A stretch of 52,917 bases of DNA from Vulcanisaeta sp. Lineage in GTDB: Archaea; Thermoproteota; Thermoprotei; Thermoproteales; Thermocladiaceae. The stretch is taken from assembly GCA_023256215.1 (NCBI GenBank), contig JAGDXB010000137.1, positions 7,123 to 60,039 of the forward strand, read 5' to 3'. The notes under the pieces were generated by a model. That model had not been told where the DNA came from and made no database searches. It was given only the letters and a program-made list of their open reading frames with translations. Position 1 is the stretch's first letter. The number at the start of each line of letters is the position of its first letter. A program made the translations under genes and the position numbers. Positions 36,915 through 41,875 of the stretch are shown piece after piece.

Positions 36915-37023
36915 CAACGTTAGGGCGACCCTAATTTTAAAAACCAATCTCTGGAAACCACCTGTTATTAACAAATGAAAAGTCGAGAAACACATAAATT
37001 ACCAATGAATGTACGGTATCAAG

Positions 37024-37356
37024 ATGGCGAAGGTAGTATTCCTAATAATGAGTAGTGATATTAAATTTGACTTGGCAATGACTATGGCGGCAAACACCGT
37101 AGGCAGCGGTAGGTATGAGGACTTCAAGGTAATATTTTGGGGACCATCACAGGAAAGACTTCTGAGACTTGAGGGTCCTGTCAAGGATTACTTTGAGAAG
37201 CTGTTGAAGGCAGGCGCCATAGATAGTGCATGCATTAATTATGCCAGGAATAAGAACATTGAGGCGGAACTTACCAAACTAAACATAAAGCTCCACCCAG
37301 CGGGAGATAGGGTCGCATATTACATAAATAACGGATACCAAGTATTGGTATTTTAA
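37024..37356 (+). CDS. DsrE-like small sulfur-relay family protein
   Basis: About 110 aa from ATG 37024 (an in-frame ATG at 37009 is an alternative). The Rossmann-like pattern (AKVVFLIMSSDIKFDLAMTMAANTVGSGRYEDFKVIFWGPSQERLL) fits small DsrE/peroxiredoxin-like proteins. The conserved active cysteine position is uncertain; there is a Cys in SACINYARNK (about residue 75). Role in sulfur transfer is only a family-level guess. The 3' end overlaps a small opposite-strand frame. Confidence 0.65.
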   Translation: MAKVVFLIMSSDIKFDLAMTMAANTVGSGRYEDFKVIFWGPSQERLLRLEGPVKDYFEKLLKAGAIDSACINYARNKNIEAELTKLNIKLHPAGDRVAYYINNGYQVLVF

Positions 37357-37500
37357 CCAATTAAAACATCTTCTCTTTAGCTCTTCAATTAGTCTTAAAA
37401 CCTCTTCAATTGTTTTCTCATCTGTTACTGGTTCTCCACAAATAACTCTCTTACCTCTTTTGACGCCCCAGCAAATCTTTAAGCCATTGATTTGGGCCAT
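37279..37500 (-). CDS. Possible small protein, 73 aa
   Basis: A 73-codon frame beginning MAQINGLKICWGVKRGKRVICGEPVTDEKTIEEVL-like; the first about 47 residues have protein-like composition (three Cys, a Lys/Arg strand, an acidic helix), while the last 26 are antisense to the DsrE-like gene. A/T-rich sequence with TATA-like elements lies upstream (37515-37540). The convergent overlap of 78 nt is unusual and lowers my confidence. Confidence 0.4.
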   Translation of the reverse strand: MAQINGLKICWGVKRGKRVICGEPVTDEKTIEEVLRLIEELKRRCFNWLKYQYLVSVIYVICDPISRWVELYV

Positions 37501-38041
37501 AATTATTAATCAATTTAAGGTATAAAATCTCTTTTTAAAAAATCTAAATTTTATAAAAATATAAAAAGAGTTCAGTAAAAGTTTTAGCTTACTTTCATTT
37601 ATACATCGAGCTCAGACATTTAATGCAATTTATACAAGGGCATGATAGCTAACAAACTAAAAATCAGAATAGAAGTAGGTATAGAAATAGGTAATGAAGC
37701 TTGGCTTCAGTAAGTCATAACAATCTACCTAACAAGCCTGTACTGTACCATAACCAATTACTAAATAACACAATTTGAACTCTAAACAATGTTGTTAAGT
37801 TTAGAAACCCATCATTGTTATATCTAAGTGATCGTTATATATGGGGTATGTATCGCTTAAGCCGCACATGCATATCCATACTGATTCACCGCTTGGTGTT
37901 TTATACTCGTAAGGTCCCTTTGCCGTATGGAGTACTACTCTCACGTTAGGTATGTGCCAATTACGCCTTTAAAAAGGCCTGTCATATGTTCAGTGCATAT
38001 GAATACTAAAATGTTCCAAAATTAATGCAATAGTTAATTAC
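37501..38041. other. 541-nt spacer holding a CDGSH-like mini-gene
   Basis: The spacer is A/T-rich. 37801-37944 (minus) encodes the CDGSH-like protein listed separately. The rest (37501-37800 and 37945-38041) shows promoter-like A/T runs but no frame, tRNA or repeat I can support. Confidence 0.5.
37801..37944 (-). CDS. CDGSH-like mini-protein with a degenerate Fe-S motif
   Basis: A 47-codon GTG frame. Reading: a short beta-strand VRVVLHTAKGPYEYK, then SVWICMCGLSDTYPIYNDHL. This lines up with the CDGSH iron-sulfur motif (C-x-C-x2-S-x3-P-x-C-D-x2-H) in its first two cysteines, the serine, the proline and the final histidine, but the third cysteine is Tyr and one residue of the D-G-S-H part is missing. 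A strong TATA element (37967-37976) centred 26-27 nt from the GTG supports a real, leaderless gene; the frame is closed by a stop just upstream. It may bind a metal differently or be a decayed copy. Confidence 0.5.
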   Translation of the reverse strand: MRVVLHTAKGPYEYKTPSGESVWICMCGLSDTYPIYNDHLDITMMGF

Positions 38042-38962
38042 TTATTTTGCGTAAGCCTTTAGTAATTCTGTAAGGTCTGGGGTGTCCAGTGGTGTTAGGT
38101 AATTGATCCTTATTGACGCTACACGATTTCCTAAATCACATGCATCAGCCGGATCTAAACCACTCAGTATTCCCGCAATATAACCTGCATCGAAGGCATC
38201 GCCGGCGCCTACCGTGGTTATTACTTTAATTAGCGAATATGGCTTACATGTAATCACCCTATCTTTATCGACGAGCATTGCGCCTCTATTGCCGAGCTTG
38301 ATTACAAATACCTTACCTAACGTTCTTAATGAATTCAACACACTATCTAAAGATTGGTCAAATAGTCTCTCTGTCTCTTCCTCATTCATGAAAATCGTGT
38401 CTGCGAGACTAATCATGTTGATTAGGTCATCTTTATTATTCGATACATGCCCAACATCTAGAAATATCGGTATTTCGTAATTACGAGCAAGCGACATCAC
38501 GTGCGCAAATGTTGGGATTATGTCCTTAGTCAATGATGCGTAAAATGTATTAATGAATAATGCTCTTGCAGTTTTAATGACGTTCTCGTTAATGTCATTA
38601 ATAGACAAGTTTGCTCCAACGCCTAAATAGCCCAGGAATGCGTGATTGCCTTGTTCATCAATTATATTATTTGAGATTGTCGTATTGCCGTGAGTTCTCA
38701 CGGTAAAGTCTAAGTTGATTCCTAAGTCCTTAAGCATATTGAGCAGTAGTTCGGAGAACGCATCATCGCCAAATCTATCAATGACCATTACCTTAAAACC
38801 TAGTTTCCTAGCCATTATGGCTGTGGTGCAGGCACCGCCTGGTGATATTACCAATACGTCAGATAATGCTACGGCGCCTTTATCTATTGGTAAGCTACGA
38901 ACTCTATAGTAAATATCCAATACACAGTCAGAGACTACCGCTAAGTCAGGGTTATTGTTCAT
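38042..38962 (-). CDS. PfkB-family carbohydrate kinase
   Basis: About 306 aa from ATG 38962. PfkB signatures: N-terminal SPGGACTTAIMARKLGFKVMVIDRFGDDAF and C-terminal TTVGAGDAFDAGYIAGIL with the catalytic Asp (GAGDAF). It phosphorylates a sugar or nucleoside with ATP; the acceptor is not predictable (ribokinase, KDG kinase and nucleoside kinase are relatives). The start overlaps the upstream MFS gene by 11 nt, so they are likely co-transcribed: uptake followed by phosphorylation is a sensible guess. A longer frame (to 39043) is less likely. Confidence 0.88.
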   Translation of the reverse strand: MNNNPDLAVVSDCVLDIYYRVRSLPIDKGAVALSDVLVISPGGACTTAIMARKLGFKVMVIDRFGDDAFSELLLNMLKDLGINLDFTVRTHGNTTISNNIIDEQGNHAFLGYLGVGANLSINDINENVIKTARALFINTFYASLTKDIIPTFAHVMSLARNYEIPIFLDVGHVSNNKDDLINMISLADTIFMNEEETERLFDQSLDSVLNSLRTLGKVFVIKLGNRGAMLVDKDRVITCKPYSLIKVITTVGAGDAFDAGYIAGILSGLDPADACDLGNRVASIRINYLTPLDTPDLTELLKAYAK

Positions 38963-40193
38963 GATCCCACGCATCAATGCTAATGCCCTTACCGGTCTCA
39001 GTACCAACAAGGTACCAAACCAGCGATGAGATAAATCCCACACCGAATACTACGGCTATAGCGATGAAATAACTACTCATGGGTAGGTATGATGATAGGA
39101 AGATTATTGGTATTGAGCCACCTAACGAGATAACCCTAACAACCGCAGTATAGGATCCCCTACGCCTCGTAACCCAATACTCCGATTTAAGCGTATCCTC
39201 GCTTAACCAGTAGGTATTTACGAACATTGAAAACAGGACATACAAAAACCAAAAGAGAAGCTGGGGCTTACCTACAATGCTCATAACTAACCACACGAAT
39301 AATGACGTTATTAAGGTACCTAATGAGGATGTCAAGAGCATAACCCTCCTACTGATAAAGTCGGCAATCGCTCCCACAATAATACCCGATATAAACGCCG
39401 TTAATGAGAAGAAGAGGATAAGCCAGTTAGTGAGACTTGGGAAGTAGTATGGACCTAAAGTCAGTACAAGTAATGTGAAGCCTGCCGTGAATGACCAACC
39501 AATTAAACCTCCAATGATTATTCTAAGCCATAATGGAGGCATCTTTACACGGGTCATTCTCAAAGCACCGGTACTATCCACATTACCCATAGTCCTACTC
39601 CTTGATCTTAACCAATGTGGAGATTCAGGTATTCTAGTCCTTAGGAAGTACATCATTGGTACTATGATTATTAATGTCAAACCAAGGGCTAACCTCTGCA
39701 TAAATACGGAAGCATTAACCAAAGCCAACAAAGCAGCTAGTACACCGCCTAGATTGGCGAAATTAAGCACCTCATAAACAACCCGACTCCTAACGGTGCT
39801 GGGGAAATATTCGTGAGATGCAATCATTACGGTATTATACTCACCACCAACAGCCAGCATAAGTACTGCAATGAACAGCAAAAGAAGCGTGTAGCTACTG
39901 CTCAGAATTAAGCCAACTGCTCCAATGATGTACATGCCCAACGACAGGTATAAACTAGCCCTCCTACCAATGGCGTCCGATAATGGACCAATCACAACCG
40001 CACCAAGGAGTAACCATAACGGCGGCCATACAGATAGCAAGGCCACAAACGGCTTCGGTACAGTAACCCAGGATGATGCTATATAGGCTATGGAGTAGAT
40101 ATAAGCCTCAATTAAGGCGCTGAGTGAGAAAACCACGAAAATCATGGTATGCATGCGTGTCCACGATAAATCCATACTCCCTGCACTCATCAC
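38952..40193 (-). CDS. MFS transporter, possibly sugar or related solute
   Basis: 413 aa with twelve predicted membrane segments. Loop motif GPLSDAIGRRASLY (about 62-75) and the equivalent in the second half (GAIADFISRRVMLL, about 256) are MFS hallmarks. N-terminal half has the PLWLLLGAVVIGPLSD block as in sugar-porter relatives. Stop overlaps the PfkB kinase start by 11 nt. Substrate unknown; pairing with a PfkB kinase suggests a sugar or nucleoside. The start might be one of the first Mets (40193, 40190, 40175). Confidence 0.85.
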   Translation of the reverse strand: MMSAGSMDLSWTRMHTMIFVVFSLSALIEAYIYSIAYIASSWVTVPKPFVALLSVWPPLWLLLGAVVIGPLSDAIGRRASLYLSLGMYIIGAVGLILSSSYTLLLLFIAVLMLAVGGEYNTVMIASHEYFPSTVRSRVVYEVLNFANLGGVLAALLALVNASVFMQRLALGLTLIIIVPMMYFLRTRIPESPHWLRSRSRTMGNVDSTGALRMTRVKMPPLWLRIIIGGLIGWSFTAGFTLLVLTLGPYYFPSLTNWLILFFSLTAFISGIIVGAIADFISRRVMLLTSSLGTLITSLFVWLVMSIVGKPQLLFWFLYVLFSMFVNTYWLSEDTLKSEYWVTRRRGSYTAVVRVISLGGSIPIIFLSSYLPMSSYFIAIAVVFGVGFISSLVWYLVGTETGKGISIDAWDHEQ

Positions 40194-40773: not shown

Positions 40774-41118
40774 ATGGAACTTATTAAGAGGGCAGAGGAT
40801 TGGTTGGAAATAGCAAAGCAGCAGCTCAACAGTGGTAAGTATTGGGCTGTTTGTTTCGCGGCACATCAAGCGGTGGAATTGTTCATTAAAGGCATCCTAT
40901 TTAATAATGCAGGTACATATCCCTTTACCCATAACTTAGTGCTATTATTAAAATCACTAAATCAAAATGCGCCGCCAAACGTAGTGGAGGCTTGTAATTT
41001 CCTAAATCCCCATTACACCGCATCACGCTATGGCGACGTATCTATGTACGATGAGGAGACAGCGAGACTTTGTCTATCGAAGGCTGAGGAGGTGATTGAA
41101 TGGTTAAAGACTTTGTAA
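40774..41118 (+). CDS. HEPN-domain protein
   Basis: 114 aa helical protein: RAEDWLEIAKQQLNSGKYWAVCFAAHQAVELFIKGIL and a C-terminal ETARLCLSKAEEVIEWLKTL block are typical of HEPN proteins paired with minimal nucleotidyltransferases. The catalytic R-x4-6-H motif of RNase HEPNs is not obvious, so nuclease activity is doubtful. It overlaps the nucleotidyltransferase gene by 19 nt. TATA at 40741-40750, 26 nt before the ATG. Confidence 0.88.
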   Translation: MELIKRAEDWLEIAKQQLNSGKYWAVCFAAHQAVELFIKGILFNNAGTYPFTHNLVLLLKSLNQNAPPNVVEACNFLNPHYTASRYGDVSMYDEETARLCLSKAEEVIEWLKTL

Positions 41119-41462
41119 GGGCTATGGAGGAATTAGTTAGTAAATATGATGAGCTATTTAATGCATTCTTATCGAAATTAATTGAGGAATTCCCTGACGT
41201 AACCATAGTACTATTTGGGTCGAGGGCTAGGGGTGATGCAAGGAGGTCAAGCGATTTTGATTTATTAATTATAACTGAAAGGAGGTTAACGTGGAGTGAT
41301 AGGGCTAGGATTTATGGCATGGCAGGTGAACTGCCAATAGATGTCTTTGTGATAAGTCCGATGGATCTAAGTAAACCATTGATAAGGCAGATGCTAAGGG
41401 ATGGTTGTAGAGTGATTCATGATCCAAGGAACTTAAATCCGTGTGGATTAGCTTCTCCTTAA
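41100..41462 (+). CDS. Minimal nucleotidyltransferase (MNT)
   Basis: 120 aa. Pol-beta type motif VLFGSRARGDARRSSDFDLLI (GS...DxD) about 37-57, and a possible third carboxylate in LPIDVFVIS (about 80). Pair with the upstream HEPN protein, overlapping by 19 nt. HEPN/MNT pairs act as type VII-like toxin-antitoxin modules in some archaea, where MNT modifies the HEPN protein; that role is inferred. Confidence 0.9.
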   Translation: MVKDFVRAMEELVSKYDELFNAFLSKLIEEFPDVTIVLFGSRARGDARRSSDFDLLIITERRLTWSDRARIYGMAGELPIDVFVISPMDLSKPLIRQMLRDGCRVIHDPRNLNPCGLASP

Positions 41463-41875
41463 CTCTCTGGCTGTATGTTCGCTAACATTAATAATTGCTT
41501 TGCCTTATCAGCGCCTAACGATAATGCGAGGTCAATGAGTTCCCTTAGATCCTGTTCTGCGTATAGCTCCTTTACTAGTGCAACGGCATTATCGGAACTA
41601 ACCTCCACGTACTTTACGCCACGTTCCTTATCTTCACCTTCGTAGAACCCAAAATCCCTCTTCATTCTTTCAATTATGGGTCTCCATAACTCATATTTGC
41701 GATAATTAAAGTTAAGTCTAATGGATTTGTTCTTGGTGTCTATAAGCCCATTATTTAGGATAACGATTAATAAGAACGCTAGGAAACCCTTTCTATCAAA
41801 TTTAACCACCTGTTCAATATCATCAACGACCTTATCAACAGTGTCTCTCGGCGTGCTTTTAGAACTCCTACCCAT
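41459..41875 (-). CDS. Uncharacterised archaeal protein
   Basis: 138 aa, no family recognised. Basic N terminus (GRSSKSTPRD), then an alternating helix/strand arrangement: FDRKGFLAFLLIVILNNGLI, a strand SIRLNFNYRKYELWRPIIERM, RGVKYVEVSSDNAVALVKELY, and a C-terminal helix rich in Ala/Leu. Length, codon use and a TATA-like element upstream suggest a real gene. Convergent with the MNT gene (4-nt overlap). Confidence 0.55.
   Translation of the reverse strand: MGRSSKSTPRDTVDKVVDDIEQVVKFDRKGFLAFLLIVILNNGLIDTKNKSIRLNFNYRKYELWRPIIERMKRDFGFYEGEDKERGVKYVEVSSDNAVALVKELYAEQDLRELIDLALSLGADKAKQLLMLANIQPES

Follow-up and report, generated by a model that had tools for sequence, protein, structure and literature searches.

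The small open reading frame (ORF) at positions 37801-37944 of the window (the whole 52,917-nucleotide stretch of Vulcanisaeta sp. DNA analysed here) is very probably, at roughly 92%, a recent 5' remnant of the normal single-motif CDGSH [2Fe-2S] protein gene of this genus, that is, a pseudogene. Intact orthologues occupied the same locus in relatives, while the window copy carried a disruptive lesion and was cut off, in line with the decay that the initial annotation had offered as one of its alternatives. On this reading the ORF is an ordinary archaeal pseudogene remnant.

The frame itself was confirmed as described. It lies on the minus strand (37944..37801), opens with a GTG start, encodes 47 residues (MRVVLHTAKGPYEYKTPSGESVWICMCGLSDTYPIYNDHLDITMMGF) and is homologous to CDGSH-type orthologues of the same genus. 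Residues 1-37 matched the G002 orthologue with 89% identity (E = 3e-21; 94% amino-acid identity over residues 1-35) and the orthologues of G011, G004 and G001 with E = 1e-20 to 9e-20. The Pfam scan returned a partial zf-CDGSH (PF09360) match that missed the gathering score (17.2 bits against a cut-off of 29.5). The proposed fit of C-x-C-x2-S-x3-P to the CDGSH motif also held, as CMCGLSDTYP, containing the first two Cys ligands, the Ser and the Pro, was the same in the orthologues and lay within both the PF09360 match and the 37-residue alignments. The claimed promoter was recognisable as a TATA-like box (TTTTTAAA; 37968..37975, minus strand) beginning 31 bp upstream of the GTG, for which the alignment of upstream regions showed equivalents in front of the intact G001 and G004 genes. 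Another upstream stretch common to the relatives (TTAGTAATAACC) was altered in the window.

An open frame of 75 codons was present at the syntenic locus in G001, G002 and G004, and G011 possessed one of 74 codons at another place, close to a contig end. The three syntenic copies read ...TYPI/V-C-S-G-K-H-K/R-LVRDE... and had a conserved C-terminal half; C25, C27, C36 and H40 were invariant in all seven copies compared, which came from the genus Vulcanisaeta and from its family and class. The intact G002 copy scored above the Pfam gathering score for PF09360 (29.6 bits against 29.5), and the solved structures closest to the orthologue were CDGSH proteins (3tbn, 3tbo, 3tbm); AlphaFold2 modelled the intact orthologue with low confidence (pLDDT 56). 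Gene order in G001, G002 and G004 was that of the window, with a PfkB-family carbohydrate kinase gene upstream of the ORF (38042..39043, minus strand; PF00294, E = 3e-40), then the CDGSH gene, then a convergent 115-aa gene (37009..37356, plus strand; 78-86% identity, syntenic in relatives, no Pfam match) that delimits the break on its far side, and MFS transporter genes outside. The initial annotation had named intact copies at this locus as the finding that would speak against its variant protein, and such copies were found; no relative with the Y-N-D-H variant that it had proposed was seen among the 61 genomes searched.

Over codons 1-35, the window DNA was 83-86% identical to the four intact orthologues, and identity fell to background past the first base of the third-Cys codon (window position 37839). 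The surviving 5' part of the gene, codons 1-35 plus one base, therefore spans 37839..37944 on the minus strand by homology, and the third Cys ligand is absent from the ORF. The remainder up to and including the stop (37801..37838, minus strand) encodes a 12-residue tail, YNDHLDITMMGF, which is chance read-through within replacement DNA: 1060 of 2000 shuffled tails aligned as well with the orthologous CSGKH region. The next 120 nt and the whole replacement segment likewise matched the lost half no better than shuffles did (44 of 500 shuffles were as good in the best of eight DNA comparisons). Because tail and replacement DNA align no better than shuffles, the Tyr previously read as the third ligand, the loop read as one residue shorter and the last His aligned with that of CDGSH are chance resemblances. 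The Tyr belongs to the non-homologous tail, as does the His (residue 39 of the ORF), and no His meets the CDGSH position four residues past the third Cys. A functional Tyr-ligand variant was rejected on the same ground, the lack of homology between the tail and the CDGSH loop, and the suggestion of an active protein with Tyr for the third Cys, perhaps holding a different metal, found no support, the gene being cut at that codon and followed by foreign DNA. Judging from these alignments, no ligand has undergone a point change; the gene is cut off at the third-Cys codon, and the earlier reading had aligned foreign sequence.

The ORF is derived from CDGSH domain proteins but is no longer a member of that family, because tests for the third Cys and for the His showed both to be missing. 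Without these two ligands and the C-terminal half, any product made from it should be unable to hold a [2Fe-2S] cluster.

From the end of codon 35 to the stop of the convergent gene, the window held ~480 bp (37357..37838, minus strand, delimited by synteny and alignment), against ~140-155 bp in relatives, where this interval consists of the 3' half and a short spacer. The replacement segment was absent from the other same-genus loci, and its first ~236 bp gave no match in the searches made. Further along, a stretch at 37532..37592 (minus strand) was 77% identical by blastn to DNA upstream of a full-length gene of a dispersed repeat family in G004. The last third of the segment contained a frame (37500..37357, minus strand) matching the N-terminus of 488-489-aa proteins in G004 and G007 (64-66% identity over 44-47 residues), and corresponds to the first ~45 codons, truncated, of this family of 488-525-aa Vulcanisaeta genes. 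The family had 12 matches in the genome of the window and up to 36 per Vulcanisaeta genome, with fragments making up many of these; G006, G009 and G011 had none. Codons 36 to the end of the CDGSH gene are missing here, and their place is taken by these ~480 bp, which include the start (~45 codons) of a repeat-family gene together with DNA from upstream of it. Illegitimate recombination, or an insertion combined with a deletion, involving a copy of this family presumably cut the gene in the third-Cys codon.

Repeat-family sequence at a join is where assemblers err, and the source genome is a draft, metagenome-like assembly (138 contigs, 87% complete), so that a second intact copy could sit on missing DNA. 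It is nevertheless highly unlikely that the contig wrongly joins the 5' half to unrelated repeat DNA in an organism with an intact gene, as both flanks are syntenic and two misjoins would be needed. Moreover, neither an orphan 3' half nor a second copy of the flanking gene occurred in the genome, and the finished genomes G007 and G010 have an analogous replacement. No other CDGSH gene was found in the draft, and the CDGSH 3' half was not found in it either, while the same query found this half in 8 of 9 relatives; its absence from this 87%-complete genome is therefore likely. The break lies just ahead of a Cys, and inteins often sit just before a Cys, yet a split gene, in which an intron, intein or programmed frameshift would connect the 5' half with a 3' half lying further along, is extremely improbable: the 3' half was found neither after the break nor elsewhere in the genome by a search with these positive controls, and codons 6-~38 are missing in G007 and G010, leaving nothing intact to splice there. 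Intein, intron and split gene were rejected on the absence of the 3' half.

The surviving codons also bear on the age of the break. In the 34 codons compared, every change peculiar to the window was synonymous (at least six of them) and none altered an amino acid, a result from a short stretch that is equally expected under a young break. With ~75 nonsynonymous sites and no change, neutral evolution since the break was estimated at no more than 0.04 substitutions per site (approximate 95% upper limit); synonymous distances from the window to the relatives were 0.9 or more. Such intact residues are unlike an old pseudogene, and since no window-specific amino-acid change was present, the choice is between a young break, the simpler reading, and selection acting on the peptide. 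The retained GTG start and TATA-like box, together with this lack of amino-acid changes, are what a working small protein would also display, for instance a peptide with two Cys, kept by selection, that dimerises or binds a different metal. This reading is very unlikely, however, given that the third Cys, the His and the C-terminal half are gone, that the tail consists of non-homologous DNA common to no relative, and that the gene was lost outright in sister lineages. For a young remnant no function is shown or needed, and a functional truncated peptide is unlikely.

The same locus was broken in several other Vulcanisaeta genomes. The G003 copy had a one-base deletion, a Trp-to-stop change and a Cys-to-Tyr change; the latter falls at the first Cys, inside a frameshifted copy with a stop codon, and its likeness to the claimed Tyr is coincidental. 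The G005 copy contained several frameshifts, and in G008 roughly the last seven codons followed the upstream region directly across a deletion scar. In G007 and G010, codons 1-5 and the sequence from about codon 38 onward survived, and a 525-aa repeat-family member took the place of codons 6-~38 (L092:4440-6017, minus strand, and L094:3996-5573, plus strand); no other CDGSH gene was found by Pfam in these two complete genomes. The family fragment of the window was only 32% identical to this 525-aa member, against the 64-66% shared with other members, and being much nearer to the latter, the replacements in the window and in G007/G010 therefore look independent. In the flank tree, G003 and G008 grouped together by both methods, and G007 and G010 grouped together, apart from the poorly placed G011; the position of the window was poorly supported. 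At least four separate losses at the locus follow (window, G005, G007/G010, and G003/G008 as one or two events), and repeated loss within the genus fits a dispensable function. The edges of the two repeat-family breaks are close (codons 36 and ~38), and two different members sit in the gene in two lineages, as would be seen if the family targeted it. It is improbable that either this preferential targeting of the CDGSH gene is real or expression and selection continue for the 35 unchanged residues, for example as a short metal-binding or dimerising two-Cys peptide, the break having made a new small protein.

Compared with single-motif CDGSH proteins (PF09360; types 3/4 of Lin et al. 2011, e.g. 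3tbn, 3tbo, 3tbm), window residues 1-35 are alike, with the two cysteines of C-x-C, G-L-S and the Pro all present, whereas the third Cys, the His and all that follows are missing. The intact Vulcanisaeta copies have C-S-G-K-H in contrast to the classical C-D-G-S-H, which is carried by bacterial and other archaeal relatives. About 35% of the species per CDGSH-positive genus retain the gene, and its loss within genera was inferred from distribution data (Lin et al. 2011; PMC3174974). The window remnant fits this inferred recurrent loss, with the difference that broken states are here seen directly at one locus, two of them with the repeat family. Within one genus, a single locus holds this gene intact, frameshifted, deleted or replaced by a repeat-family member, a direct illustration of recurrent CDGSH loss, with an uncharacterised Vulcanisaeta repeat family present at two of the breaks. 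As a true variant metal site the ORF would have mattered; its reading as a remnant corrects a tempting misreading of a frame that spans a breakpoint.

The repeat family is, like the PaREP2b-type families of Thermoproteales (PF07775; Pyrobaculum, PMC3558965), multi-copy with many fragments, but no scanned Vulcanisaeta member matched PF07775 convincingly. PaREP2b identity was not supported, as PF07775 had no match over the cut-off in 12 genomes and none in hmmscan; one weak match below the cut-off (E = 0.006) overlapped a repeat-family member in G005. No convincing Pfam or NCBIfam model match was obtained for the members scanned, and a viral origin was rejected both for the replacement DNA and for the family, with no match in IMG/VR or phage records. 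The search of solved structures yielded helix-bundle matches only, with weak E-values and mostly to designed proteins. The 525-aa member of G007/G010 contains a G-D-G-x-x-D motif that, by eye, could recall LAGLIDADG proteins.

A ~40-bp stretch (TGTATAAATGAAAGTAAGCTAAAACTTTTACTGAACTCT; window about 37567-37605, minus strand) recurred with ~83% identity in G001, in G010 and on contig C48 of the same genome, and may be a promoter or the end of a repeat that these sites share. A second fragment of the repeat family was located at 41459-41875 (minus strand), 4 kb from the break; it corresponds to residues ~260-380 of the full-length protein (35-39% identity) and is not collinear with the N-terminal piece. 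Two overlapping small genes at 40774-41118 and 41100-41462 (both plus strand) resemble, by eye, a HEPN protein gene paired with one for a minimal nucleotidyltransferase (GSRARGDARRSSDFDLL), a toxin-antitoxin-like combination common in archaea.
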